Of a stretch of 64,000 bases of DNA, positions 31,369 through 46,254 are shown piece after piece. Below the pieces are notes generated by a model. The model was not told the origin of the DNA. It ran no database searches and saw only the letters and a program-made list of their open reading frames with translations. Location: assembly GCF_004368405.1 (NCBI RefSeq), contig NZ_SBJH01000004.1, positions 62,001 to 126,000 of the forward strand. Direction: 5' to 3'. The DNA is from Olivibacter sp. XZL3 (GTDB taxonomy: Bacteria > Bacteroidota > Bacteroidia > Sphingobacteriales > Sphingobacteriaceae). Positions within the stretch are counted from its first letter, which is position 1. Every line of letters starts with the position of its first letter. The position numbers and the translations under genes are program-made.

Positions 31369-33603
31369 TTATGATGATTTCAGTTCATTGATGAACGGCT
31401 GGTTGTAAAAGCGTCTTCCGGTAGCTTTATAAAGTGCATTTGCCACAGCGGCAAAAGTTGGTGGAAACGGCGGCTCGCCCATGCCCGTAGGATCTTTTTC
31501 ATTTTTTACAAAATGAACATCGATCTCTTTTGGGGCTTCGTTCATTCGAATTAATTGGTAAGTCGTAAAATTGTTCTTTTGTGGCACTCCGTCCTTAAAC
31601 GGAAGTTCCCCGTATAGCGCATTACCGATACCGTCTACAATAGCACCTCCGGCCATATTAATGGCTGCATCTTTATTGATTACAATTCCGCAATCAATGG
31701 CTGCAACTATTTTTTCCACCTTGGGAATACCATTTTTCATCACCAGATCAACCACTTCCGCAACATAGGAATTGTGGCAAAAGTAGGCTGATACGCCACG
31801 GTGAACTCCCTCCGTTGTTTCCTTCCATTTAGATTTTTCACGTACCAATTCCAGTACCCCCGCGTAACGGGCGGCATCGTAATCATTTCTCTCACCTATC
31901 GGATTTGTCCTTGCCCGTTCCAGCAGTTCCAAACGAAAATCAATGGGATCTTTGCCCATCTCTGCCGCCAGTTCATCCAAAAAGGATTGTTCCGCCGCCG
32001 CCATAAAGTTGGACCGCGGCGCGCGAAAAGCGCCAACGGTGATATTGGAAGGAATCTGCCACCCTTCAGCAAGGTAGTTATCAATCGCGCCCGCCGGAAA
32101 ACGATTTGCATGCAAAGGTGATTCAGGGATTCCGCCTGCCTTGACATGGAAAGCCAATAACTGATTGTTTTCATCGAATGCTGCCCGATAAGTTGCACTG
32201 TACGTGGGCCTATAGATTCCGGCAGTCATTTCGTCCTCACGTGTATAGACAAGTTTAATCGGAGCCTGCGCATGTTTGGATATAACCGCTGCTTCGATCA
32301 AATGATGCCCGTATGCCCGACGACCAAATCCGCCTCCCATGCGCGCCAGCCGAATCAGTATTTTTTCCTTTGGCAACCCAAGCCTTTGCGAAAGTGTTCC
32401 CAAAATAAACTCGGGTGCCTGCGTTGGCCCATATAATTCGGCCCTATCAGCCGTGACATGTGCAAAGCAGTTCACGGGTTCCATGGCATTATGCGCCAGA
32501 AATGGTGCAGTATAGGTGCGTTCAAGAATTCTTGCGGCTGATTGGAAAGCCTTTTCCGGATCCCCATCTCGCCGGGAAACATTTCCCGGCATTTTGGTTA
32601 ATTCCTGCATTTTGGCCCGATGCACTTCCGTGCTTTCCAGTCCCGAAGGAAATGTCGCCTTTCTGCCACCCATTGTAAAGATGCGTTCGGGCTCCGCTTC
32701 CCACTCTACTTTTAATGCTTTTTTTGCCTGCAGTACCTCCCAAGTGGTATTGCCCACAACCACGGCAAATTTAGTGAAACTGGTTGCATCAAAGATGTTC
32801 TGGTCTATATCCTCCGTCAAGGAGTCTATCGTAAATATGGACTTAATGCCGGGCATAGTTTTAGCAACGCTGTCATCCATCGATCTAAAGCGTAGTCCGA
32901 ATGCTGGAGGGTGAACGACCATCGCAATAAGCATTCCGTCTGTCTTATAATCGAGTCCGAATAGAGGCTTTCCCATCAGTATATTCTTAACCTCTACGTT
33001 ACTCTTGGAAGAACCTACGATCCTGAAATCTGAAACATTTTTCAGCTTTACCGATTCCGGCACCGGTCTCATGGCAGCAGCGGACGCAAACTCACCATAA
33101 CCGGCTTGCTTTCCGGATACTGCATGTAATAAGGTGCCCTGCTGGGTGGTAATCTCCGAGGCGGGGACTTTCCATTCGGTTGCCGCAGCCAGTACCAGCA
33201 TCTGCCTTGCCGTAGCACCGGCGGTTCTTAAAGGCGACCAGGCCTCCATGACGGAACGGCTGCCCCCGGTGAATTGTCTCGCATAGCGCTCCGGATAGAA
33301 ATCCGCCTGTTCAACGATGACCTGCTCCCAATCGATGTCCAGCTCTTCGGCAAGGATCATGGGCAGCGAAGTCTTCACGTTCTGTCCAAATTCCGGATTC
33401 GGGTTGAACAGGGTAACCACACCGTTTTTGCCGATCTTGATGTAGCTGTTCATCTCGAACCACTCTTCCGGTATTTCAAGTGCATCCTTCCCGGCAGCTT
33501 TGCTGCCAACAGGCCAGCTGAAATGGACAATCATCCCACCTCCTGCAAGCAGGGCAGCTTTCAGGAAGGATCTTCTTCCCATATTATTTTTAACTTCAGT
33601 CAT
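31369..33603 (-). CDS. molybdenum hydroxylase large subunit (IorB-like, xanthine dehydrogenase family)
   Basis: 744 residues. Tat signal GRRSFLKAALLAGGGM, so exported folded to the periplasm. Molybdopterin-binding motifs include RMGGGFGRRAYGHH, TGGSRSVMEAWSPLR, GAFRAPRSNFMAAAEQSF and the active-site Glu in PTGMGEPPFPPTFAAVANAL. Relatives (isoquinoline 1-oxidoreductase and periplasmic aldehyde oxidoreductases) hydroxylate N-heterocycles or aldehydes with water. Forms a complex with the 2Fe-2S and cytochrome subunits encoded just upstream. Substrate not deducible. Confidence 0.9.
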   Translation of the reverse strand: MTEVKNNMGRRSFLKAALLAGGGMIVHFSWPVGSKAAGKDALEIPEEWFEMNSYIKIGKNGVVTLFNPNPEFGQNVKTSLPMILAEELDIDWEQVIVEQADFYPERYARQFTGGSRSVMEAWSPLRTAGATARQMLVLAAATEWKVPASEITTQQGTLLHAVSGKQAGYGEFASAAAMRPVPESVKLKNVSDFRIVGSSKSNVEVKNILMGKPLFGLDYKTDGMLIAMVVHPPAFGLRFRSMDDSVAKTMPGIKSIFTIDSLTEDIDQNIFDATSFTKFAVVVGNTTWEVLQAKKALKVEWEAEPERIFTMGGRKATFPSGLESTEVHRAKMQELTKMPGNVSRRDGDPEKAFQSAARILERTYTAPFLAHNAMEPVNCFAHVTADRAELYGPTQAPEFILGTLSQRLGLPKEKILIRLARMGGGFGRRAYGHHLIEAAVISKHAQAPIKLVYTREDEMTAGIYRPTYSATYRAAFDENNQLLAFHVKAGGIPESPLHANRFPAGAIDNYLAEGWQIPSNITVGAFRAPRSNFMAAAEQSFLDELAAEMGKDPIDFRLELLERARTNPIGERNDYDAARYAGVLELVREKSKWKETTEGVHRGVSAYFCHNSYVAEVVDLVMKNGIPKVEKIVAAIDCGIVINKDAAINMAGGAIVDGIGNALYGELPFKDGVPQKNNFTTYQLIRMNEAPKEIDVHFVKNEKDPTGMGEPPFPPTFAAVANALYKATGRRFYNQPFINELKSS

Positions 33604-33641
33604 ATCTTACCTTTTAAATTCAGTATTTTCAATGCTTGGTT

Positions 33642-34292
33642 TTATGGAGCATAAGCACCGTTTTTTAGCCAGGTAATCCAGGCTTCCTTAAACTCTTTAT
33701 GACTTAACGGAGGCAAGGTCCGTCCGTCACCTGGTTCCCATCCCCAAAGCACTAAGTCGTCATCTGCATGATCGATCAGCGCTTTCATATCTTTATGTCC
33801 GTTTTGAGCAGGATCAACGAGTTGTTTTGCCAATTCTCTAGCACTTTTTCCTTCAAAGACCATTTTCATATCAGCAGGTGGAAGATGCCAGTTTGGATTG
33901 CCGGGAGGAGTATGTGTTCCAAGAGTGTTTTCACTTTGGTGGCAATTGGTACATTTCATGGTCAAAATACCTTTTCCATCTTTGCCCCGTTGGGGCAACA
34001 TTGCATGCAAATGACTATCATCTCCCTGTAAAGGTACATCGCCGGCCGGATGACAGTTGACGCACCTGGGGCTCATCAATACGCTATACACTTTAGAAAA
34101 TGCCTCTACGGATTTAACGCTATCCTTCTTCGAATGAACTGTGGATACTTTCTTATCTTTTGGATCAAATGCTGCTGATCCGGAATGTGCAGATATCTTA
34201 ACCATTAAGGTCATCAGGATGGCTAAAACCGATAATGCTGTTACCAATCTATAGCTACGCATGTCTTTTTTTTGTCCAGTTTTACTTTCCAT
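33642..34292 (-). CDS. c-type cytochrome subunit of the molybdenum hydroxylase
   Basis: 216 residues, one N-terminal hydrophobic helix (LVTALSVLAILMTLMVKI) and two haem-binding motifs, CVNCH and CTNCH. C-terminal part (LPPLSHKEFKEAWITWLKNGAY) as in cytochrome-like partners of isoquinoline-1-oxidoreductase-type enzymes. Would accept electrons from the 2Fe-2S subunit and pass them to the respiratory chain. 38 bp from the large subunit and 27 bp from the small subunit gene. Confidence 0.85.
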   Translation of the reverse strand: MESKTGQKKDMRSYRLVTALSVLAILMTLMVKISAHSGSAAFDPKDKKVSTVHSKKDSVKSVEAFSKVYSVLMSPRCVNCHPAGDVPLQGDDSHLHAMLPQRGKDGKGILTMKCTNCHQSENTLGTHTPPGNPNWHLPPADMKMVFEGKSARELAKQLVDPAQNGHKDMKALIDHADDDLVLWGWEPGDGRTLPPLSHKEFKEAWITWLKNGAYAP

Positions 34293-34319
34293 CTCCTAAG
34301 TTGTTTATGTTTGAGCCGT

Positions 34320-34790
34320 TTACTTTAATTTAGTTTGGATTTCGGCAGCTAAATGAATCGCTTCCCTGATTCTCAGGTAGGTACCACATCTGCAAATATT
34401 GCCTGTCATGGCCAGATCAATGTCCTCATCGGTGGGATTTGGAATCTCCCGGAGCAGTACAGCCGCAGACATAATTTGTCCTGACTGGCAATATCCGCAT
34501 TGAGGCACATCTACCTGTTCCCATGCCTTTTGTAAAGGGTGGTCTCCATGCTCCGAAAGGCCTTCTATTGTAACGACTTCCTTTCCAGCGGCACGATTTA
34601 TTTTTGTCACACATGACCGTACAGCCTCTCCCTCTAAATGAACAACGCACGCACCGCAGGCAGCAACTCCACAACCGTATTTGGTGCCAACTAAGTTTAA
34701 ATGGTCACGTAAAACCCATAATAAAGGCGTAGATGGGTCAACATCTACTGAATATTCTTTGCCGTTGATTTTCAAATTTGTTGTTGCCAT
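34320..34790 (-). CDS. 2Fe-2S subunit of the molybdenum hydroxylase (IorA-like)
   Basis: 156 residues. N-terminal plant-type 2Fe-2S site [17 protein letters not shown] with a fourth Cys in VRSC; C-terminal helical 2Fe-2S site CGYCQSGQ and [12 protein letters not shown]. No signal peptide, so it probably crosses with the Tat-targeted large subunit. First gene of the operon behind operator copy 5. Confidence 0.93.
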
Positions 34791-35158: not shown

Positions 35159-35436
35159 ATGAAAGAAATAAACGACATCATCCGGGCTTACGAAACGACA
35201 TTGGGAAACAACCAATCTATGGCTCTTGCCACAGTTGTCAAGGTGGAAGGTTCTTCCTATAGACAGCCGGGAGCGCGCATGCTCGTCACATGGGATTGGA
35301 CATCGGGGCAGAAACTTCTGAAGAGATCGCCATCTCGGTTCTATCTGAAATCAAGGCCATTCTGAGTGGAAGAAAAGGAAGCTCACTGAAGCTTCTGACA
35401 ACAAAAATACATGATGATATTCGAACCATACGATGA
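35159..35436 (+). pseudogene. xdhC-like gene with large internal deletion
   Basis: Starts MKEINDIIRAYETTLGNNQS then MALATVVKVEGSSYRQPGARML (XdhC N-terminus). At about 35290 it jumps, in another frame, to GLDIGAETSEEIAISVLSEI then KAILSGRKGSS, the XdhC C-terminus. Roughly 300 residues are missing. XdhC proteins sulfurate and insert the Mo cofactor into hydroxylases, so the neighbouring enzyme has lost its dedicated factor here. The stop overlaps the moaA start (ATGA). Confidence 0.85.
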
Positions 35437-36422
35437 CAGAAAGGATCATAGATAACTTCGGACGAGTCCATAATTACCTACGGATATCCCTCACGGATAA
35501 CTGTAATCTGCGGTGCTTCTATTGCATGCCGGAGGAAGAATATGCCTTTACTCCGCATACCAAACTGATGCAGGCAGACGAAATCAGGCAATTGGCGAAA
35601 CTCTTTGTGAACAATGGTGTAACGAAGATCCGTTTGACAGGTGGTGAACCTCTCGTGCGAAAAGACGCACCAGAAATCATCCATGCCCTATCCGAACTAC
35701 CGGTCGAATTGACTATGACTACCAACGGCATACGGATTGATGACATGCTACCCCAGATCGTGGATGCAGGCTTTAGCAGTATCAACATCAGCCTTGATAC
35801 GTTACAAAAGGATAGGTTTGCTCAGATTACACGCAGAGATTACTTTGACCGCGTTTGGCGTAATATCGACCTGCTCCTTGACAGGCAAATACAGACCAAA
35901 CTCAATGTTGTATTAATGAAGGGGTTGAATGACGATGAAATACTGGACTTTGTAAAACTTACAAACCTTTATCCCCTGGAAGTACGTTTTATTGAATTCA
36001 TGCCCTTTGAGGGTAATCACTGGTCGAGCAACCAAGTGTTAACACTGAATGAAATCCTCGACAGAATAAGTGAGGTCTATACGATAGAGCCACTTGAACA
36101 GCGGCCCCACGACACGACCAAACCGTTTGCCATCCATGGACATATAGGAAAGATTGCAGTTATCAGCACCATGACTATGCCGTTCTGTGAAGATTGTAAC
36201 CGTATGCGACTGACTGCGGATGGAAAATTGAAGAACTGTCTTTTTTCAAAGGAAGAAACGGATCTGCTATCGGCATTGCGAAACGGTGAAGATGTCCTTC
36301 CATTGATACATCAGAGCATACGTTCCAAACCGAAATCCCTGGGCGGACAATTAACAGAAAATTTTAAGGATATAGAAGCCGATTCCCTAACGAACCGGAG
36401 CATGATAAGTATTGGCGGATGA
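35433..36422 (+). CDS. moaA: GTP 3',8-cyclase MoaA
   Basis: 329 residues. Radical-SAM enzyme that, with MoaC, makes cyclic pyranopterin monophosphate from GTP. Radical-SAM cluster motif DNCNLRCFYCMPEEE; SAM/GTP segments LTGGEPLVRKD and TTNGIR; C-terminal cluster CEDCNRMRLTADGKLKNC. The C-terminus ends SIGG, carrying the double glycine needed in MoaA. Translationally coupled to the xdhC remnant and the next fragment by ATGA overlaps. Confidence 0.95.
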   Translation: MTERIIDNFGRVHNYLRISLTDNCNLRCFYCMPEEEYAFTPHTKLMQADEIRQLAKLFVNNGVTKIRLTGGEPLVRKDAPEIIHALSELPVELTMTTNGIRIDDMLPQIVDAGFSSINISLDTLQKDRFAQITRRDYFDRVWRNIDLLLDRQIQTKLNVVLMKGLNDDEILDFVKLTNLYPLEVRFIEFMPFEGNHWSSNQVLTLNEILDRISEVYTIEPLEQRPHDTTKPFAIHGHIGKIAVISTMTMPFCEDCNRMRLTADGKLKNCLFSKEETDLLSALRNGEDVLPLIHQSIRSKPKSLGGQLTENFKDIEADSLTNRSMISIGG

Positions 36423-36595
36423 TAAAAAAGACAGCTATAATCGTATTGGCGGCAGGAAATTCTTCCCGGTTGGGAACACCTAAACAACTTCTCGGTTTTG
36501 AAGATAAGAGTTTACAGGCAAACTGTCCGATAGTTATTCCTGAAGATGATGAAGCGGTTTTATCAGGAGCAGATATTGAAGCTTATTTACTATAA
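36419..36595 (+). pseudogene. molybdenum-cofactor nucleotidyltransferase remnant (MobA/MocA-like)
   Basis: 58 codons: MIKKTAIIVLAAGNSSRLGT then PKQLLGFEDKSLQ is the nucleotide-binding start of MocA/MobA-type transferases (LAAGxSSRxGxPKQLL). It runs on as ANCPIVIPEDDEAVLSGADI, which I cannot place with certainty. About 130 residues of the core are missing, so it cannot be active. ATGA overlap with moaA. Confidence 0.7.
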
Positions 36596-36613: not shown

Positions 36614-38611
36614 ATGAATTTAAAATTTCTTTTACCCGCATTTTTATGTTTTTCGGTCCAGCAATCATGGGCGCAGTCTCCCGCTGAAACAGATAGTGTA
36701 AAGAATGTCTTTAAACTGGGAGAAGTTTCCGTGATTGGTCAAAGGAACGTGAATACCGTAAGCGCAGAGCAGATCCAAAAATATGGCAAAAACGATGTGG
36801 CCGCTGCGTTAAATCTGCTACCGGGCGTGACACTCACCTCTATTGGAGCAAGAAATGAAAGCGTGGTCAATGTTCGGGGTTTTGATCTTCGGCAGGTACC
36901 CTTATTTATCGACGGTATCCCGGTATATATTCCCTATGACGGCATGGTCGATCTGGGCAGGTTTACCTCGTTTGATGTCTCGGAAGTTCAGGTTTCTAAA
37001 GGAAATGCCTCAGTGTTATATGGTCCGAACGCGTTAGGGGGCGCTATAAATGTCATTACAAGAAGACCTGAAAAAGAATTGGAAATACAGGGTGCCACAG
37101 GCTACATATCAGGAGGCTACCGAACCAATTTCAATTTCGGGTCAAAATGGACCCGCTTTTACGTGCAGGCGTCTTTTTCCCAATTGAACCGTGATTTTTT
37201 CCCGATGTCAAAAAAATTCACTCCTACTGAATTTGAAGATGGTGGACAACGGGAAAATTCATACCAGAATGATCGGAAATACCATATCAAGGTTGCATTT
37301 ACTCCGAACGAAAATTCGGAATATGCCATTGCATACAGTTATCAGCAAGGCAGCAAAGGAAATCCCTTTTATGTAGGATCTGATCCCGAAAACAATCAGT
37401 TAAGCAGACCCAGATACTGGGAATGGCCAAAGTGGGATAAACAAAGCATATATTTCCTTTCCAATACAGCCATAAATCAGAACCAGTCCATCAAAACACG
37501 GATTTATTATGACGTATTCAAAAACGTCCTGAACTCCTGGGATGATGCAACTTTCACAACAATGGAGCGTGGCTATGCCTTTTCAAGCATCTACAATGAC
37601 TACACTATCGGCGGTATTGTGCAGCATGACTATCAAACAAGCAAACGCAACCTCCTTTCAACCTCCGTTCAATATAAGCAGGACGTTCACCGTGAATACG
37701 ATTTGGGAGAACCTGAACAAAATATGAACGATGGAAATTTTACCTTAGCTATAGAAGATCGCTTTAGGATAACAGAAACATTGGACTTAACAGCTGGCGT
37801 AAATTATAATAATAGAAAGAGTTTTAGAGCGGAAGATTATAATGCCGACACGGATAAGATCAGCAATTTTCCATCCAACTCCAATGATGCCTTTAATATA
37901 CAAGGCGCCTTACAGTATCGGTTAACACCTAATCAACAATTAAACCTTTCTGTTGGTAAAAAAACAAGGTTTGCTACGCCTAAGGACCGTTACTCCTATA
38001 GGATGGGTACGGCAATCCCCAATCCCGATCTTAAGGCAGAGCAGTCTGTCAACTATGATCTGACCTACAGCAACAGATTATCCAATCGCCTGTTTTTGGA
38101 TGGTTCTTTATTCTACAGTAAAATCAGTAGAACCATGCTCATGGTAAACAACGTACAGTACGATGATGATGCTGACATGTGGCTCAATCAATTGCAGAAC
38201 ACAGGTGATAGTGAGTACTTGGGTTTTGAAGTTGCTGCAAATTATCTCATCAGTCCGGCCTTTACTATCGGATCAAATTATACCTTCATTAAAAGGAACA
38301 ATATCAGCAATCCGGAAATCTACCTAATGGATGTGCCTCGTCATAAACTGATGCTCATGGCAGGTTACGATCTGAGCGATAGGTTTCGGGTACAGGCCAA
38401 TATGGAACATAACTCGAAACGTTACAGTACTTCTTACGGCACGGAATCGCCGGGTTTTACGCTTTATAACGCTAGCGCAAACCTTAAGGTCTGGAAGTGG
38501 TTCTCGGTGGAAGGAGGTGTAAATAATATCTTCGATAAGAACTATACGCTGACAGAAGGATTCTATGAATCGGGACGTGTATTTTACAGTAACCTTGTCT
38601 ACAAATTCTAA
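36614..38611 (+). CDS. TonB-dependent outer-membrane receptor
   Basis: 665 residues. Signal peptide MNLKFLLPAFLCFSVQQSWAQ; plug domain about 35-150 (NVRGFDLRQVPLFIDGIPVY, SVLYGPNALGGAINVITRRP); the rest is a 22-strand barrel ending in YSNLVYKF with terminal Phe. Shorter than SusC-type receptors and without their N-terminal extension, so nearer to siderophore or metal-chelate receptors. Sitting inside a molybdopterin operon, it may import molybdate, tungstate or the hydroxylase substrate (inference). Confidence 0.88.
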   Translation: MNLKFLLPAFLCFSVQQSWAQSPAETDSVKNVFKLGEVSVIGQRNVNTVSAEQIQKYGKNDVAAALNLLPGVTLTSIGARNESVVNVRGFDLRQVPLFIDGIPVYIPYDGMVDLGRFTSFDVSEVQVSKGNASVLYGPNALGGAINVITRRPEKELEIQGATGYISGGYRTNFNFGSKWTRFYVQASFSQLNRDFFPMSKKFTPTEFEDGGQRENSYQNDRKYHIKVAFTPNENSEYAIAYSYQQGSKGNPFYVGSDPENNQLSRPRYWEWPKWDKQSIYFLSNTAINQNQSIKTRIYYDVFKNVLNSWDDATFTTMERGYAFSSIYNDYTIGGIVQHDYQTSKRNLLSTSVQYKQDVHREYDLGEPEQNMNDGNFTLAIEDRFRITETLDLTAGVNYNNRKSFRAEDYNADTDKISNFPSNSNDAFNIQGALQYRLTPNQQLNLSVGKKTRFATPKDRYSYRMGTAIPNPDLKAEQSVNYDLTYSNRLSNRLFLDGSLFYSKISRTMLMVNNVQYDDDADMWLNQLQNTGDSEYLGFEVAANYLISPAFTIGSNYTFIKRNNISNPEIYLMDVPRHKLMLMAGYDLSDRFRVQANMEHNSKRYSTSYGTESPGFTLYNASANLKVWKWFSVEGGVNNIFDKNYTLTEGFYESGRVFYSNLVYKF

Positions 38612-38614
38612 GCT

Positions 38615-39343
38615 ATGGAATGGTTCTACATTATACTGTTTTTTGTCGCCTTCCTATACGCTTCTGTTGGACATGGCGGGGCAAGCGGGTACCTGGCATT
38701 GATGGTTCTGTACGGAATAGCGCCACAGGAAATGAAGTCAACGGCTCTGATATTGAACCTATTCGTTTCCCTGACTTCTTTTATCCAATATTATAGAGGG
38801 CATTTTTTCAAAAGAAACTTATTTTTGACGGTTGCCGCAGCGTCCATACCCTTTGCATTTATCGGAGGAGCGATTACACTGGACGACAACCTTTATAAAC
38901 GCGTGCTCGGCATGTTATTGCTCTTTCCCATTATCCGGTTTTTCTTCTTCAGAAGTCCGGGAGAGGACGAATTAAAGCCCTATAATATTTTTGGAGCTGT
39001 GGCTATCGGTGCCGTTGTCGGATTGCTGTCCGGCATGATCGGTATCGGTGGCGGTATCATCCTTTCTCCATTGTTGATCCTGTTGAAATGGACGGATCAG
39101 AAACAGACTGCTGCCATAAGCGCTGCCTTTATTTTTGTAAATTCACTTTCAGGTTTGGGCGGCATGCTCACGCGGGGGATCACCTTCAGTGCCGAAATGT
39201 GGCTCTACATTGTTGTGGCATTCGGAGGTGGTTTGCTCGGTGCTTATCTTGGCTCGAAAAAACTGAACCAGGAAGCCCTTAAACACGTTCTTGCGACAGT
39301 ACTCTTAGTGGCTGCCTATAAATTATTGTTTACAACTGCATAA
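38615..39343 (+). CDS. TauE/SafE-family (TSUP) membrane permease
   Basis: 242 residues with about 8 hydrophobic segments. Family motifs in both halves: VGHGGASGYLALM and GMIGIGGGIILSPLLILL. TSUP proteins move small sulfur-containing or organic anions such as sulfite. It starts 3 bp after the TonB receptor stop, so the two work together, perhaps for an oxyanion. Four bp from the next gene region. Confidence 0.88.
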   Translation: MEWFYIILFFVAFLYASVGHGGASGYLALMVLYGIAPQEMKSTALILNLFVSLTSFIQYYRGHFFKRNLFLTVAAASIPFAFIGGAITLDDNLYKRVLGMLLLFPIIRFFFFRSPGEDELKPYNIFGAVAIGAVVGLLSGMIGIGGGIILSPLLILLKWTDQKQTAAISAAFIFVNSLSGLGGMLTRGITFSAEMWLYIVVAFGGGLLGAYLGSKKLNQEALKHVLATVLLVAAYKLLFTTA

Positions 39344-39349
39344 AAAGAA

Positions 39350-39852
39350 ATGAAAACGATCATTACAACTCTTCTGATTTTGTCCTATATGTGGCTTCAT
39401 GCCCAGGATGCGAAAAATCTTGATATTATAACGCCTGACACCAAAAAAACAACACTTACCTTTGAAAAGATAGGCGCCTTTGGGGCTCATTCTCTGGACA
39501 GCTGCGCATATACAACCACGCGGGAAAGTACCGTTCAACCTTAAAAGGCGTTAAAGGGTCTCTATTAAAGGATGTTTTAAAGGACATTGCTTTGGGAGAG
39601 GAATCACCAAAGGTATTGAGCGAATATTACATCGTATGTATTGCGAAGGATGGGTATAAGGTAGTATTCTCATGGAATGAACTGTTCAACACGCCGATCG
39701 GAGACAGTGTTTTGGTCGTTACCAATATCAATGAGGCAACAAATGGAGAACAGGAAGATGACCTCGCATTGCTTTCACCAAAAGATATGGCCACCGGAAG
39801 GCGATACGTAAAACAGTTACAGACAATTCAATTTCTACGTGTAAGTTTATAA
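39350..39852 (+). pseudogene. exported small protein, frameshifted (sulfite-oxidase-like domain possible)
   Basis: Frame 1 gives MKTIITTLLILSYMWLHAQ (signal peptide) and LTFEKIGAFGAHS up to about 39490. Then a one-base change shifts to GQLRIYNHAGKYRSTLKGVK, LLKDVLKDIALGEESPKVLS, EYYIVCIAKDGYKVVFSWNE, VTGRRYVKQL-like end. KGVxxxxLL and DGYxxxFSxxEL resemble the oxidoreductase molybdopterin-binding domain, without its Cys. Either a recent pseudogene or a sequence error; downstream reading is otherwise clean. Confidence 0.6.
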
Positions 39853-39878: not shown

Positions 39879-40106
39879 ATGAAAGTAAAAGTTCTGACAT
39901 TTGGATCACTGACCGAAATCCTGGATAAAGAGTTTCCTGCTGAAGCATCGGATACAGATAGCTTGACGGCTTCACTTACTGCAAAATATGCCGGATTAAG
40001 AGGTCGTAAATTTTTGGTCGCGGTCAATAATATTATCGTTCAAGAAAACATGATTCTTAAAGAGCAGGATGTGGTGGCCCTTATGCCGCCCTATTCGGGA
40101 GGATAG
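39879..40106 (+). CDS. moaD: molybdopterin synthase sulfur carrier subunit MoaD
   Basis: 75 residues, ubiquitin fold, ending in the required GG (MPPYSGG). The C-terminal glycine is adenylated by MoeB and thiocarboxylated, then gives sulfur to the pterin with MoaE. KVLTFGSLTEIL and VAVNNIIVQEN are typical. Four-bp gap to moeB. Confidence 0.93.
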   Translation: MKVKVLTFGSLTEILDKEFPAEASDTDSLTASLTAKYAGLRGRKFLVAVNNIIVQENMILKEQDVVALMPPYSGG

Positions 40107-40109
40107 AAA

Positions 40110-41210
40110 ATGGATTGGAACGATCGTTATTCGAGACATTACAAATTGAGCGGATTTGGAGCAGCAGGACAAACTAAATTACAACAGTCCAGTGTACTGG
40201 TAGTAGGTGCGGGCGGCCTGGGTTGTCCAGCTCTGCAATATCTGGCCGCCGCTGGGGCGGGAAAGATAGGCATTATTGACGACGGTTGTATCGAACTGAG
40301 CAACCTGCAACGTCAGGTATTGTTCGGAACAGGCGAAATTGGCCTTTCCAAGGCGGAAGTCGCCGCTACAAAACTAAGATTGCTGAATCCGGAAATTGAA
40401 ATCCAGGAGTATGCAGTATACCTCTCCACCGAAAACGCCGTCGAACTTGTCGAGGGCTATGATGTGGTACTCGATTGTACGGATAACTTTAATACGAGAT
40501 ATCTTCTAAGCGATCTATGCATGCTCTTAGATAAACCATTGGTATTCGGTGCGATCTATCAGTATGAAGGGCAATTGGCTGTTTTCAATGTCGGAGGTGA
40601 AACAACGACATACAGGCATCTTTTCCCTTTACCACCCAGCCCCCTGGATGCCTTGAACTGCAATGAGGTAGGCGTCCTTGGCGTGCTGCCCGGCATTATT
40701 GGTGCCATGCAGGCTACCGAAGCCATCAAGCTCCTGACAGGTATCGGTCAGCCACTATCTAATAAATTAATGACTATCAATCTATTGGATAATCGTACCA
40801 TGCTATTGGACATTCCGAAAAACTTATTGGAAGAAATAAATTTTCCGACTTCCTTGCAAGCTTTTGAAGCTTTCGATTATGACTACCACTGCGGTATCAG
40901 GGAAACTTCGGTTCAAGGAATCAGTCCAGAGGAATTTATGGAGGTATGCCGGAAGGGCGATGTTTTGGTCGTTGATGTGCGCAATGCGGATGAACTGCCA
41001 AAACTTCCCTTTGAACATGTGCAGATACCGTTTCATGAATTGTCTGATAATTTGAGAAAAATAGACGGCAAGCACGTGATCGTGGTCTGCCAATCGGGAA
41101 AAAGAAGTCAAATTGCAGGACAATTTCTATTGGAAAAATTTGGGACGGATGCCTTTATCAGCCATTTAGAGGGTGGTGTTCTTAACCTGGAAAAATATAA
41201 TAATGGATAA
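40110..41210 (+). CDS. moeB: MoeB-type adenylyltransferase fused to a rhodanese domain
   Basis: 366 residues. E1-like domain 1-245: VLVVGAGGLGCPALQYLAAAG, DDGCIELSNLQRQ, the DCTDNFNTRYLL motif. C-terminal rhodanese domain from about 270 with VLVVDVRNADE and active-site loop VVCQSGKRS. Activates MoaD and may supply its sulfur through the rhodanese Cys. The zinc CxxC pairs of E. coli MoeB are not evident. Overlaps moaE by 8 bp. Confidence 0.92.
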   Translation: MDWNDRYSRHYKLSGFGAAGQTKLQQSSVLVVGAGGLGCPALQYLAAAGAGKIGIIDDGCIELSNLQRQVLFGTGEIGLSKAEVAATKLRLLNPEIEIQEYAVYLSTENAVELVEGYDVVLDCTDNFNTRYLLSDLCMLLDKPLVFGAIYQYEGQLAVFNVGGETTTYRHLFPLPPSPLDALNCNEVGVLGVLPGIIGAMQATEAIKLLTGIGQPLSNKLMTINLLDNRTMLLDIPKNLLEEINFPTSLQAFEAFDYDYHCGIRETSVQGISPEEFMEVCRKGDVLVVDVRNADELPKLPFEHVQIPFHELSDNLRKIDGKHVIVVCQSGKRSQIAGQFLLEKFGTDAFISHLEGGVLNLEKYNNG

Positions 41211-41643
41211 AAAGAAAAAGAACATATTTGTGGAGGGGGCCATTCCTCCGCTCTTGATTGCCGATAGTATAGCAAAACATTCCTCTAAGAAGGGGATCGG
41301 TGCGCATAGTATCTTCTTGGGACAGATCAGGGCAGACGAGATCGATGGCAAAACCGTCCATGAAATAGAATATACGACGTATGATGATTTCGCGCTTGTT
41401 AAAATGTCGGAAATCAGAGAAGCCATCTTTGAAAAATATTCCTTGACCTGCATGCATGTATACCATAGTATCGGAACGGTGAAGACCGGTGAAATATGCC
41501 TTTTCGTCTTCACGTCATCTGCTCACAGAAAGGCAGCCATAGCGGCGTGTGAAGAGCTCGTTGAGCGTATTAAAGAAGAACTACCGATATGGGGAAGAGA
41601 AATTTTTGAGGGCAACACCCATCAGTGGAAAGTAAATCGATAA
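41203..41643 (+). CDS. moaE: molybdopterin synthase catalytic subunit MoaE
   Basis: 146 residues from ATG 41203, overlapping the moeB stop. GAHSIFLGQIRADEIDGKTVHE, then EYTTYDDFALVKMSEI, SIGTVKTGE, and the end ELPIWGREIFEGNTHQWK containing the catalytic Lys region (the family KxxxPIWKxE is replaced by ELPIWGRE). Last intact gene of the operon. Confidence 0.93.
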   Translation: MDKKKKNIFVEGAIPPLLIADSIAKHSSKKGIGAHSIFLGQIRADEIDGKTVHEIEYTTYDDFALVKMSEIREAIFEKYSLTCMHVYHSIGTVKTGEICLFVFTSSAHRKAAIAACEELVERIKEELPIWGREIFEGNTHQWKVNR

Positions 41644-41739
41644 CATGGTTGACAACATTACATTCAAAAGCTACAAGTTGCACAAAGCTATTGCGACAGC
41701 TGTTATTCAGATTTCATATCCTAACACTATAGCTCTGAT

Positions 41740-42112
41740 AGAATAAAAGCCGCATGATTAATCGACTGTTTTTAGTCGATTTACGGCCTGTCTGAGGCCT
41801 CGATAGTGGTAGTGATTTCTTTCTCCGTGGTAATTTACCCGAACTGAATCGGATAGCTGTAAGGCCGTCGGTATCACTTAAACCCAAAGCCTTTAAGACA
41901 TGTAATGGCTTGGTGACCGTAGCCTAACCATTTGACACAGAAATGGCACTTAAATTGATTATTCCTGGTACATTTAGGGTTTCTCTCGGTAAGCCTTTTT
42001 GCTGTCTACCTTCTTGGATCTGAAGAGTCAGATACTTTTTCACTTCGCTCGATACCGCCAGATATTGTATTTTCTTTACCCATTTCAGTCCAATATTTTG
42101 CCAACTTATCAA
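41740..42112 (-). pseudogene. cysteine desulfurase (IscS/NifS-like) remnant
   Basis: On the minus strand, several frames give VKKYLTLQIQEGRQQKGLPRE then TLNVPGIINLS, next HVLKALGLSDTDGLTAIRFS, then ITTEKEITTTIEA. These are, in order, the C-terminal motifs of NifS-type enzymes (GGGQExGxRxGTxNVPGI, then HVLxAxGxS and SLGxxTTxEEID). Many stops. A desulfurase next to moeB and xdhC would have fed sulfur to MoaD or to the cofactor. A small hairpin (AATCGACT / AGTCGATT, 41760-41781) lies at its end. Confidence 0.65.
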
Positions 42113-42164: not shown

Positions 42165-42551
42165 CTATACCATATAGACCGTACCCTTTTCGGGGACATA
42201 TGCTTCAATGGTTTTATGGCCAGCGGCAACCGCCATTGCGGTCCTATAAAAACCATCAATTACCAGACTCTCTGTGTAGAGCCCATTCGTCGATCGCCTT
42301 CCGATCAGTATAGGTGGCGCCTCGCCTTTCATGGGACCGATGTCATATCTATCCTCAATAAATGAATGAAGTTCAATATCCTGCCGCCTCAGTTCTTCAA
42401 TATCCACTTTCATTTTAACATAGCGTTTGTCTACCACTTCTGCGTAGATGAGGTCTTCCATTACGGCCTCTACATCCCACTGTTCTGCAGCCATGATCGC
42501 ACTAGCTATATCAGCTCCCGAAATCCCTTCCATCTCAATTTTCTTTTTCAT
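42165..42551 (-). CDS. ParB/sulfiredoxin-fold-like protein of unknown role
   Basis: 128 residues. Central part has GEAPPILIGRRS and SLVIDGFYRTAMAVAAGHKT then IEAYVPEKG, which resembles the ParB N-terminal fold (PPIxI, xVIDGxHRxxAA). The N-terminal 50 residues are helical and acidic. It lies after the coupling-protein gene in the mobilisation module, 18 bp apart. Its role, in partition, nicking or regulation, is not known. Confidence 0.55.
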   Translation of the reverse strand: MKKKIEMEGISGADIASAIMAAEQWDVEAVMEDLIYAEVVDKRYVKMKVDIEELRRQDIELHSFIEDRYDIGPMKGEAPPILIGRRSTNGLYTESLVIDGFYRTAMAVAAGHKTIEAYVPEKGTVYMV

Positions 42552-42569
42552 GCTTCAACTTCTATATTC

Positions 42570-44564
42570 TCAATTTTTCTTCACTACCAGGTGTCTTAAT
42601 GCGGGATCATTGATCATTCTCTCAATTTCCATGGAAACAATATCCTTTACATCCTGTCTGATCTGCTCATAATTCGCCTTTACCATTGGAGCATCCACCT
42701 GTCGAATTACCGGTATAGGAGCGTAAGCTTTTTCCTCCGCCTCTATGGCATCAAAGTCGTTTTGTATCTCACAGTGAAAGGCTTTTAAAGGTATTTTCTG
42801 TTGTGGCGTGTCGGCCACCATTCCCACAAATTCCCCTGAGGAAAGTGCTGCTATCTTAGAGGCAGGAACCGCATATTCAAGCTGCTTATTCTTGCTTACG
42901 GAAGTATCTCCGCTGTTGATCGAAAGACTCTCCCTGTCCTGCATGATCTTTCCAATCTGTTCGGATAACTGCTTGGCTGAATCTCCGGTTACCTGCCCTG
43001 AAATCACTTTACCTACAATGCTCATGATCACATCGGCCTGTTCCTTTCCATAGTCCTTGCGTAACTGACTGGCATCTTGAACCCCCAGAACACAGCTTAT
43101 CAGATTCGATCTCCCGGTACTGATCGTAGGTATTACGTCCGTTGTCAGGGTAGGAAATTCGTCGAAGATGAGCATGCATTTAAGCTTGTTTTTCTTATTG
43201 ATGATCTTCAGTAAGCGGTTCGTATAAAGGGAAAGAACCGCTCCATAGATCTGTATCTTCTGCGGGTTATTGCCCATGCATATCACCTTGGGATGTTCCG
43301 GATTATTAATATCCAATGAGAAATCATTACCGCTAAGAACGTAATATAGCTGTGGAGATGCCAGTCTCGCCATCGCGATTTTGGCAGATGCTATCTGCCC
43401 TTCGAGCTGCTCCATCACATCGTTCAGATAGGCATTAATGAAGGGATTTATCAGTACTTCTATTTCTTTTTCCAGTCTGAGTACAGTAAATAATTCATCG
43501 TATTCCAATTGCATAAGCTCGATCACATGGGGCAAGGTACAGTATACTCCCTCACGGTATTTACGGAGAAACCAGATAATGGCCGTGACGAAATTGATCG
43601 GTGATTCTACGAAGAAGTCCCCCTGTTTCTTCTTCCATTCGCTGTTCAGTCCAAGCAGGATCGTTCTGGCAGATTCGGAGGCATCGGTAATATCCTCCAT
43701 ACCCAAGGGATCCAACGGATTACCTCTGTGGGTACGGGTAAGGTCATCGAAATTGACAAAATAACAGTCCGATTTTGCCCCGTACCGGTGCCTGTTCTTC
43801 AGCCAGTGGTTATAGGCTATGATGGACAGATCGGGAAACTTGAAATCATATACAAAAAGCGTGTATGGCTTATATGAACCCGGCCGGTTCAGTACCTGAC
43901 TGATAAAATGACGGATCACAAATGCTGTTTTTCCAGCCCCGGGGCTGCCCAAAACGAGGCATGCGCGAAAAACGGCAATAAAATTCAGCCACGAGTCCCG
44001 GACCTTCCCTCTGAGCCGGTATTTTGCAGGAAGATTGATGGAAAATTCATTGGTCAAGAGCCTCTCTTCCTGTGGGAAGGTTTCGTTCAGCGAATTAAAA
44101 ATATCGTCCTTCAGCCTATCCTTAATGATCCTTGTAAGCAAGGTACCGTCCGTTAATATAAAAAGATATCCAACGGATGTGATGCCGATGTAAAGCAGCG
44201 TTAAGATGGTTATTTCAAGGTCTGCCAGCAGGGTCAGATAGCTGAGCAGATAGACAAGCAACCCAGAAAACAGATATGCAAATGCTGTACGATGGTCCAG
44301 CTTTTCATCTTTTCTTCCCTTCGTTCCCAGCAATGAAATAAAGAGAAAAGCTAAAGCAATAAGTTTGGATTTGTGGAAATAGCTAAAAAGTCCGGTATCC
44401 GCAACATTGCCCATTAGCCTATCGGTAAACTCCATGTGGAACCGCCATTGCACAAACCCAGCATAACAAAAATAATAAAAGTGCAATATCAATATGACCA
44501 CACTTATCAGCCGCGTCATATCCAGAATTTTCCTAAGCGCCTGATCGTTCTCTCCCGTCTGCAT
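42570..44564 (-). CDS. conjugation coupling protein (MobC / TraD-like ATPase)
   Basis: 664 residues from ATG 44564, which has AGGAGGGAA 6-7 bp upstream. Four N-terminal hydrophobic segments (to about residue 165), then a VirD4-type ATPase: Walker A VLGSPGAGKTAFVIR, Walker B LIFDEFPTL, and QDASQLRKDYGKEQAD. Brings the relaxase-DNA complex to a secretion channel. The element itself encodes no channel proteins that I can see, so a helper would be needed. Directly follows the relaxase gene. Confidence 0.85.
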   Translation of the reverse strand: MQTGENDQALRKILDMTRLISVVILILHFYYFCYAGFVQWRFHMEFTDRLMGNVADTGLFSYFHKSKLIALAFLFISLLGTKGRKDEKLDHRTAFAYLFSGLLVYLLSYLTLLADLEITILTLLYIGITSVGYLFILTDGTLLTRIIKDRLKDDIFNSLNETFPQEERLLTNEFSINLPAKYRLRGKVRDSWLNFIAVFRACLVLGSPGAGKTAFVIRHFISQVLNRPGSYKPYTLFVYDFKFPDLSIIAYNHWLKNRHRYGAKSDCYFVNFDDLTRTHRGNPLDPLGMEDITDASESARTILLGLNSEWKKKQGDFFVESPINFVTAIIWFLRKYREGVYCTLPHVIELMQLEYDELFTVLRLEKEIEVLINPFINAYLNDVMEQLEGQIASAKIAMARLASPQLYYVLSGNDFSLDINNPEHPKVICMGNNPQKIQIYGAVLSLYTNRLLKIINKKNKLKCMLIFDEFPTLTTDVIPTISTGRSNLISCVLGVQDASQLRKDYGKEQADVIMSIVGKVISGQVTGDSAKQLSEQIGKIMQDRESLSINSGDTSVSKNKQLEYAVPASKIAALSSGEFVGMVADTPQQKIPLKAFHCEIQNDFDAIEAEEKAYAPIPVIRQVDAPMVKANYEQIRQDVKDIVSMEIERMINDPALRHLVVKKN

Positions 44565-44581
44565 GTCCTTCCCTCCTCTTA

Positions 44582-45874
44582 TCAGCGGCCATCCGAAGAC
44601 CTTTTCCTTTTCTTTTTTCTCTTCAACCGGTTCCGCAATTCCCACGGCAGGTGATCAGCGATATATTCCGGACCGAGAAGTGTTTCCATAAAATTTTCGA
44701 TGTCCCTTCCAATGCTTCCTTCAAAGGATGGGGCGGCCGTTACCTGCTGATCGATATGAGGCAACTGCCTATCTTCGTGTTTTTCCGCAATTCCATTTTT
44801 GATTTGCAGGACGGTTTGATGGCTTTCGCCGCTCTTATTCCTGATGGCATTGGAACTGTAATTTTTACCGAGATCGCTTCCATTGAACACGCACTTACTG
44901 ACATGATCCACGTAGGTAACGCCATATAATTCTCCCAACTGATTTCTTCTAAGAACCATATCAATCCCCTGTCTACCAAGTTCCTTTACCAGATCTTCCA
45001 CACCGTTTTTCGGTGTTCTCAGGAGCGCCATATCCACTGCATTTCGAACCCTTGCCCGATGTTTCCGCCTAACAATTCTGTTCATCGTAAAACGCCCTTC
45101 CAAAAAAGCCAGTGTCGGTTTGTCAGGAAGCAGGCTCGCTTTGATCGGAACTCCTACAGGCTTTCCGGCGCTATCCAGAATACGGTATACGAGTCCGTTA
45201 TTTTTATATATCCTGGAGTCTACGTCGCCTCTAGAGGCCTCTACATTGTACAGTCCCAACAGAGCATTCAGCTCTGTAACCGAACCGTAGCAGTAGGTAT
45301 TTATTACGCCGGAAAGTACATTCGTTATGGATCTTTTTGTTTCCGATTTACCATATTCAATACAAGATGAATAGGCACTTTTCACTTTACCGGTTTCCTG
45401 TTCTTTTCCTTCTGCAGGTACGAGATTATATTTGTTCTCCAGTGTTCTTCTGGCTTGTTCAGATTTGGTTTTCCCTAGATTATGCAACTTGATCGCAGTG
45501 CCATCATTCTTTATATTGGTTGTCAAAATATGGACATGTGGATGTCCGGAATCGTAGTGCCTGTATATGAGAAACGGCTGTTCGGCGAAACCTAAATACT
45601 CCAAATAATCCACTGCAATTGCCTGTAGCTGACCGGTCGAAAGTTTCTCAGAAGGGTCAAAATTTAGGGAAATATGAATGCAGTTCCGCTTCACTGATGG
45701 ACGTAATGCAGCCTGATCCGCAAGCCGGTTCAGCTTTTGGTTAAAACTTAATTGGCAACTTTCTTTTGGATAATTACCTGCATAAATACATTCGGCAACA
45801 TCATCCTTGACCTTGTTTTCGTTATAGTTCAGGACAGTACGCAGGCTGCCACTGGTATGGATCACCGCAACCAT
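44582..45874 (-). CDS. relaxase / mobilisation nuclease (MobB-like)
   Basis: 430 residues. Relaxase domain (PF03432-like) in the first 250: HISLNFDPSEKLSTGQLQAI, and the metal-binding triad YRHYDSGHPHVHILTTNI. Likely catalytic Tyr early in the protein (LNYNENKV or CIYAGNYP). The C-terminus is basic (RNRLKRKKKRKRSSDG). Nicks the element at oriT. Overlaps the mobA gene by 13 bp. Confidence 0.88.
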   Translation of the reverse strand: MVAVIHTSGSLRTVLNYNENKVKDDVAECIYAGNYPKESCQLSFNQKLNRLADQAALRPSVKRNCIHISLNFDPSEKLSTGQLQAIAVDYLEYLGFAEQPFLIYRHYDSGHPHVHILTTNIKNDGTAIKLHNLGKTKSEQARRTLENKYNLVPAEGKEQETGKVKSAYSSCIEYGKSETKRSITNVLSGVINTYCYGSVTELNALLGLYNVEASRGDVDSRIYKNNGLVYRILDSAGKPVGVPIKASLLPDKPTLAFLEGRFTMNRIVRRKHRARVRNAVDMALLRTPKNGVEDLVKELGRQGIDMVLRRNQLGELYGVTYVDHVSKCVFNGSDLGKNYSSNAIRNKSGESHQTVLQIKNGIAEKHEDRQLPHIDQQVTAAPSFEGSIGRDIENFMETLLGPEYIADHLPWELRNRLKRKKKRKRSSDGR

Positions 45875-46254
45875 TTGTCTCCCATTTTATCTATCCATTC
45901 TCCGATGATTTGAACCTGTTTCAACACTGTCCTTCGATCTATTTCATGTACCGTTGCCCACGTTGTTATCTCGCTGCTCTTATCCATCGCGTTGAGTTTT
46001 TTCACCGCCTGATTGAAGTTAACACCGACGCTGTTCAGCTCTTTCCGCAGGCGCATTATCTCGATCATAAATTCATCCAACGATCGGTCACGGGTAAACA
46101 TGGTTACCGGTTTTCCGAGGATTATCCTGCGGATATATTCACTCAGTTGCGGAGTCGTACTCCGTGCACATTTGCTCTTGATCTTATCGTATTCCGTAGT
46201 TGTAAGTCGCAGACCGATAATCCTGCTCCGCTTGTCATTTTCTTTTTCCATCAC
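45862..46254 (-). CDS. relaxosome accessory protein (MobA / MobC-type ribbon-helix-helix)
   Basis: 130 residues. N-terminal ribbon-helix-helix (RIIGLRLTTTEYDKIKSKCA, SEYIRRIILGKP), then a helical part (LRKELNSVGVNFNQAVKKLN) as in bacterial mobilisation proteins. Binds oriT with the relaxase. First gene of the mob operon; the candidate oriT lies 77 bp upstream. Confidence 0.82.
   Translation of the reverse strand: MMEKENDKRSRIIGLRLTTTEYDKIKSKCARSTTPQLSEYIRRIILGKPVTMFTRDRSLDEFMIEIMRLRKELNSVGVNFNQAVKKLNAMDKSSEITTWATVHEIDRRTVLKQVQIIGEWIDKMGDKWLR

Follow-up and report, generated by a model that had tools for sequence, protein, structure and literature searches.

A candidate molybdenum uptake module within a molybdenum cofactor operon of Olivibacter sp. 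XZL3

We analysed a 64,000-nucleotide stretch of the Olivibacter sp. XZL3 genome (assembly GCF_004368405.1, contig NZ_SBJH01000004.1, positions 62,001 to 126,000; hereafter the window), focusing on three genes inside an operon for molybdenum cofactor (Moco) biosynthesis. The source genome measures 5.36 Mb, and the window belongs to its contig C97; genomes, genera, families, contigs and loci are cited by our own handles (G, g, f, C and L numbers) where needed. On the + strand the operon reads xdhC remnant, moaA, mocA::moeA remnant, TonB-dependent outer-membrane receptor, TSUP permease, a small protein (the third gene), moaD, moeB, moaE and a moaC-moaB fragment. The receptor (36614..38611, +; 665 residues) matches the Plug family PF07715 with 80.6 bits and the barrel family PF00593 with 102.7 bits. 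The TSUP (TauE/SafE) permease (38615..39343, +; 242 residues) matches PF01925 over residues 6-237 with 115.9 bits against a cut-off of 32.6. The third gene (39350..39852, +) encodes a protein with a signal-like start and has orthologs of 166-167 residues. A preliminary description, made from the letters alone, had placed a receptor, a TSUP permease and a small exported protein between a mocA remnant and moaD, and open reading frames, Pfam matches and orthologs bear out all three. The gaps of 3-6 bp that it gave hold for receptor to TSUP (3 bp) and TSUP to third gene (6 bp); the spacers preceding receptor and moaD measure 18 and 26 bp. Its frameshift in the third gene was recovered by tblastn with the intact Olivibacter sitiensis ortholog, which aligns with 39350-39562 in one frame and with 39502-39846 in another. 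Judging from sequence comparisons, we consider these three genes a probable module for molybdenum uptake within the Moco operon, with TSUP standing in for the ATP-binding cassette (ABC) transporter ModABC.

The nearest named relative found, O. sitiensis DSM 17696 (L012; receptor identity 91%), carries the operon as whole genes: xdhC (377 residues), moaA, MocA-MoeA (589 residues), receptor, TSUP, third gene (166 residues), moeB and moaC-moaB. A scan of named genomes with the receptor returned two loci, this one and one in Parapedobacter pyrenivorans (L013), in which moaA, a broken receptor gene, TSUP, third gene, moaD and moeB follow in the same order as in the window; the third gene is intact in both, at 166 and 167 residues. 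In O. sitiensis, MocA and MoeA share one 589-residue open reading frame (L012:8212-9981), of which the window keeps only both ends, residues 1-32 of MocA being fused in frame to the last 26 of MoeA (36419..36594, +). The mocA remnant of the preliminary description derives from such a MocA-MoeA fusion gene and not from mocA alone. Compared with L012, xdhC (35159..35433, +) lacks its middle and retains residues 1-46 and 330-377 of the ortholog in different frames.

With the third gene frameshifted and four neighbours (xdhC, mocA, moeA and moaCB) deleted in part or truncated, each lesion being read from a draft assembly in which an assembly error is possible, the window locus could be a decaying, non-functional copy in the source strain. 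Contig C94 of the same genome carries a second Moco locus (L014), in which cysteine desulfurase, xdhC, mocA, moaA, moeA, TSUP, moaD, moeB and moaC-moaB follow one another, all at full length. We nevertheless regard such decay as unlikely, since receptor and TSUP are themselves full length and, against L012, show the lowest ratios of nonsynonymous to synonymous divergence (dN/dS) of the six genes compared: about 0.04 for the receptor (dN 0.042, dS 1.03) and about 0.06 for TSUP (dN 0.049, dS 0.87). The other genes have ratios of 0.07 (both hydroxylase subunits), 0.08 (moaA) and 0.13 (moeB); dS approaches saturation in this comparison. By this measure, receptor and TSUP are under strong constraint. 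The L014 TSUP is 58-59% identical to that of the window, and because L014 also holds one, a TSUP gene occurs in a Moco operon twice in the source genome.

Among 395 sampled genomes of the class, the receptor profile A1 (threshold E value 1e-130) detected the family in 13, the source genome included. The 12 other genomes contain 13 receptor loci, and in 11 of these a match to the regulator family ModE lies 92-2808 bp from the receptor (92-168 bp in nine loci, 802 bp in G250, 2.8 kb in G214, no such match in G222 or G497). The receptor has a third-gene homolog at a distance of 12-211 bp in 10 of the 13 loci, one in each of the ten ModE-bearing genomes; the second receptor locus of G485 ends with its contig. 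These gaps run between matches, not between gene ends. The ten genomes that combine receptor and ModE span eight families (f3, f9, f23, f28, f53, f54, f60 and f76), and a TSUP-holding Moco operon adjoins the receptor locus in G250 and G177 (L043, L047). Outside the class draw, ModE, receptor and a PF00174 protein stand together in G037, G063 and G058, whose receptors are 49-54% identical and which all have MoeA. A di-haem cytochrome c peroxidase of the MauG type is also encoded inside this cluster (L016:8858-9964, L017:8525-9664, L019:7884-9083). In G497 (L051:2609-11042), a receptor relative follows genes that by eye are nitrate reductase-like, with a MobA-like gene further up.

The window receptor shares plug and barrel with TonB receptors such as BtuB and the siderophore receptors, and its best solved relatives are BtuB chains; it differs from them in the linkage of its type to ModE and Moco genes and has no close solved relative (best match 84 bits, profile positions 49-172). 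The receptor might import the substrate of the neighbouring hydroxylase, or an iron or cobalamin ligand, its place in the Moco operon then reflecting co-regulation only. BtuB, the colicin I receptor and siderophore receptors are the closest solved receptors by sequence, a hydroxylase is encoded next door in the window, and the lower-scoring relative in G222 sits with genes that look ABC-transporter-like by eye. We find this quite unlikely: ten class genomes from eight families pair the receptor with ModE and a third-gene homolog, all ten have MoeA and TSUP, and the stretches read around those ten receptors hold no match to the window hydroxylase. The best reading of the cargo would be molybdate, tungstate or a molybdenum complex. 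The hydroxylase substrate, also proposed in the preliminary description, is less likely, given that the linkage recurs with ModE, with moa/moe genes and, through the third gene, with modABC.

ModE matches occur in 62 of the 395 class genomes. E. coli ModE has molybdate-binding domains in its layout, and the full-length NCBIfam ModE model comprises 263 positions. In the class genomes, the open frames of the receptor-adjacent ModE-type genes span 112-254 codons, and counted from the start codon the proteins at L016, L017, L019, L040-L044, L047, L048 and L052 have 110-150 residues, so that most receptor-adjacent ModE-type proteins would have no room for the molybdate-binding domains. At L055 and L070, in two genomes, a ModE-type gene stands beside a conserved protein of about 175 residues, with no Moco gene within 1.5 kb.

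Intact orthologs of the third-gene product, which have a signal-like start, match no Pfam family by themselves. They align with PF00174 proteins, 11 of 13 aligned homologs match PF00174, and the third-gene profile weakly matches 1ogp, which we take to be a plant sulfite oxidase (E 5e-4). On this evidence, the protein is probably a distant relative of PF00174, the Moco domain of sulfite oxidase, and differs from that family in being a core domain only, in exported form. We rejected the idea of an unrelated protein, given its homology to the PF00174-like proteins beside the receptor elsewhere. A cysteine common to eight homologs, presumably the molybdenum-ligating cysteine of the sulfite oxidase family, is absent by eye from the window group and from L016, L017 and L019.

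A third-gene profile (A4, E 1e-15) was run against 80 genomes chosen as bearers of ModE, receptor or TSUP, and matched in 24. The homolog stands with receptor and ModE in the ten class genomes and in G037, G058 and G063, as well as in G183, where the receptor is divergent; G489 (L116) has it near ModE and a divergent receptor. Window-type operons hold it in the source genome, G015 and G077. In G435 (L110) it occupies a Moco operon that has no receptor (xdhC-moaA-mocA-moeA-TSUP-third gene-moaD-moeB-moaE-moaCB). Elsewhere it adjoins modABC in three loci read, directly before modABC in G015 (L117) and G523 (L120) and facing modCBA in G014 (L111), and in G431 (L119) it marks a former modABC place. 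Because its homologs accompany each candidate molybdenum transporter, the third-gene product is best explained as a periplasmic part of molybdenum uptake. In the second Moco locus of O. sitiensis (L117:6823-10425), the homolog lies between moaA and modABC.

The TSUP subfamily was followed with profile A5, made from 16 proteins and applied to the class sample at E 1e-40; the profile was built from copies beside ModE or in Moco operons, and its link with Moco genes is accordingly in part by construction. TSUP was found in 129 and MoeA in 183 of the 395 genomes, with both in 125, TSUP only in 4, MoeA only in 58 and neither in 208. Of those with TSUP only, G237 keeps a piece of moeA next to TSUP at the edge of a contig (L075), and the completeness of G482 is 62% and that of G307 82%. 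Distances were computed from gene places transferred by hand: of the 108 TSUP copies that have a listed place, 82 are no more than 6 kb from moeA, 8 share its contig at a greater distance (6.2 kb in one case) and 18 are on a different contig. A further 18 copies have no distance, moeA places being unlisted for 34 genomes, and 4 sit in genomes without a MoeA match. A distance of at most 1.5 kb separates TSUP from ModE at 15 of 30 ModE loci, and TSUP or a Moco gene from ModE at 24; 2 of the rest have the receptor or third gene and 4 have none of these partners. Chance was rejected as an explanation of the linkage, on the 395-genome counts and a Fisher test that ignores phylogeny. The recurrence on which the preliminary description had staked its uptake proposal is thus found, TSUP recurring with Moco genes and receptor plus third gene with ModE-type regulators. 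The window permease belongs to the TSUP/TauE-SafE sequence family, and its subfamily differs in its tie to Moco genes and perhaps in the stretch GHGGAS (at residues 19-24 in the window protein), which all 16 subfamily members that were aligned have in common. A search of the PDB with the TSUP profile gave no match at E 1.

The distribution of ModB, the permease of ModABC, was then set against that of TSUP, using TIGR02141 at E 1e-25. ModB was detected in 32 of 40 genomes with MoeA and no TSUP, versus none of 118 with both MoeA and TSUP (40, then 78 more), a contrast with a Fisher value of 2.6e-26 in which genomes are not independent and phylogeny is ignored. The first set comprises 40 of the 58 eligible genomes in listing order, low-completeness genomes and G251 being omitted. 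The second comprises 118 of 125, 40 hand-picked across the list plus 78, with the seven lowest-scoring omitted; four are less than 90% complete and one has 6% contamination. Of the 32 ModB matches, 25 exceed the family cut-off; the remaining seven score 132-164 bits and could represent different ABC permeases of that type. This contrast does not arise from the construction of A5, to which 14 of the 118 genomes contributed rows. The source genome has no ModB over the cut-off (best 61.4 versus 182.6 bits) and none at 1e-25; two relatives added by hand were G077, without ModB, and G015, with it.

Both states occur within six genera: g14 (ModB in G035; TSUP in G013, G050 and G061), g36 (ModB in G241 and G303; TSUP in G161 and G332), g47 (ModB, below the cut-off, in G172; TSUP in G250), g58 (ModB in G183; TSUP in G418), g69 (ModB in G264; TSUP in G323, 84% complete) and g174. 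In the last of these, G523, which has MoeA and no TSUP match, carries third gene-modA-modB-modC between two flanking genes (L120:6257-11616). G431 has the same flanks and third gene without modA or modB there (L119:7931-11226), no ModB, and a TSUP of 311 bits elsewhere. Displacement of one transporter by the other is the simplest reading of these loci, and TSUP appears to replace ModABC. A route described beforehand as distinct from ModABC can accordingly be put more strongly, as one used instead of it. The window module shares with ModABC (together with ModE) its proposed job and its genomic company of ModE and moa/moe genes, and differs in having no ABC proteins, its components being a single TSUP permease and, at the outer membrane, a TonB receptor. 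The mutual exclusion of ModB and TSUP holds in the class sample and not in O. sitiensis.

TSUP proteins are treated, in the part of one account that we drew on, as poorly characterised carriers of sulfur compounds (PMC5840216). The window TSUP might export sulfite or another sulfur species arising from Moco sulfuration, leaving only the receptor concerned with metal uptake. Characterised members include sulfite and sulfoacetate exporters, according to the portion of PMC11535334 consulted, and the operons hold a rhodanese-domain MoeB, joined in the relatives and the second locus by a cysteine desulfurase. We hold sulfur export to be very unlikely, since it leaves unexplained both the ModB pattern (absent from 118 of 118 tested MoeA genomes with TSUP, present in 32 of 40 without) and the adjacency of TSUP to ModE. 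The same portion of PMC11535334 reports that growth of E. coli delta-cysA is rescued by a TauE homolog, which the authors interpret as uptake of sulfate, an analogue of molybdate. This rescue suggests that the TSUP family can import such an oxyanion.

The proposal of molybdenum uptake builds on four observations: that the genes are there, that they are conserved, that their linkage recurs, and that TSUP and ModB almost exclude each other. What the module transports, in which direction, and what each protein does are inferred as follows. At the outer membrane, the receptor would take up scarce molybdate or a molybdenum chelate with TonB energy. In the periplasm, the small PF00174-like protein may bind molybdenum or hand it over between receptor and TSUP, the weakest step. 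At the inner membrane, TSUP would carry molybdate, possibly tungstate, inward in place of ModABC, the best supported step. Cofactor assembly for the hydroxylase, by MoaA to MoeA/MocA, would follow in the cytoplasm. Support is thus strongest for TSUP, next for the receptor and least for the third gene. A module for tungstate and not molybdate is a highly doubtful alternative: the oxyanions are chemically alike and molybdenum and tungsten proteins often bind both, but the operons hold ordinary Moco genes (tungsten-specific genes were not looked for) and the neighbouring enzyme is in the molybdenum hydroxylase family.

Several observations weigh against molybdenum uptake by this module. TSUP and modABC can coexist, both being present in O. 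sitiensis (G015). Eight of the 40 genomes with MoeA and no TSUP have no ModB either at the thresholds used (TupABC and SulP/MOT1-like transporters were not searched for), so that a further molybdenum route probably exists; these are G207, G278, G279, G288, G333, G342, G361 and G454. The receptor family is rare, at 13 of 395 genomes, most TSUP genomes having none, and its lower-scoring relatives in G222 and G497 come without adjacent ModE, third-gene homolog or MoeA. Third-gene homologs in G248 (two copies), in G522 and on contig C40 of the source genome have no molybdenum gene in the stretch read, and a structure model of the protein from two sequences has a mean predicted local distance difference test (pLDDT) score of 39.6, unusable for a fold search. 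The source genome has no ModE at E 1e-8. At 15 loci outside the window, the DNA upstream of ModE and receptor genes was compared for exact inverted repeats of 6 bp that might represent a ModE box, and no repeat recurs in more than two loci.

In searches limited to open PMC papers, neither a molybdate-transporting TSUP protein nor a TonB receptor for molybdate was reported in the titles and abstract openings retrieved. The sections used of a 2018 survey name no prokaryotic molybdenum importers other than ModABC, WtpABC and TupABC, apart from a ModABC-like group in some archaea, and count 278 of 3683 molybdenum-using bacteria without a known molybdenum transporter (PMC6147048). A Flavobacterium Moco operon is listed with no transporter named in it in the part available of PMC12758843, and the text of a report on the Geobacter ModE regulon does not contain the word TonB (PMC2700814). 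If TSUP imports molybdate, this would explain the molybdenum supply of many molybdenum-using genomes of the class (125 of the 183 with MoeA), would re-label proteins of the "sulfite exporter TauE/SafE" family and would make the missing transporter directly testable; with a TonB receptor linked to molybdenum, the range of TonB substrates would grow to include a metal oxyanion. It is conceivable, although we stop a little short of favouring it, that the module represents an ABC-free, envelope-spanning molybdenum system, with the first TonB receptor for molybdenum, a periplasmic carrier derived from a molybdoenzyme cofactor domain, and a TSUP that displaced ModABC several times in the class, in many relatives beside ModE-type proteins scarcely exceeding a DNA-binding domain in length.

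The remaining operon genes on the + strand are moaA (35433..36422; 329 residues, full length), moaD (39879..40106; 75 residues), moeB with a rhodanese domain (40110..41210; 366 residues) and moaE (41203..41643; 146 residues). An Rfam search of the window gave no match, and a plasmid search with the cluster gave only weak matches in 10 records, the five listed covering 2% each. Upstream, on the - strand, lies a three-gene molybdenum hydroxylase locus (31369..34790), the presumed user of the cofactor, made up of the large subunit (31369-33603), an exported protein that matches no Pfam family and is cytochrome-like by eye (33642-34292), and the [2Fe-2S] small subunit (34320-34790). At the downstream end, the 5' fragment of moaC-moaB (41645..41794, +) breaks off at about 41794 and is followed by pieces of a cysteine desulfurase gene. 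Just past it, at 42165-46254 and extending to about 50400, are mobilisation genes for a type IV coupling protein with a YWFCY domain, a relaxase and a MobC/NikA-like protein, together with a ThiF-like protein; because they directly adjoin the broken moaC-moaB, a mobile element may have cut the operon.

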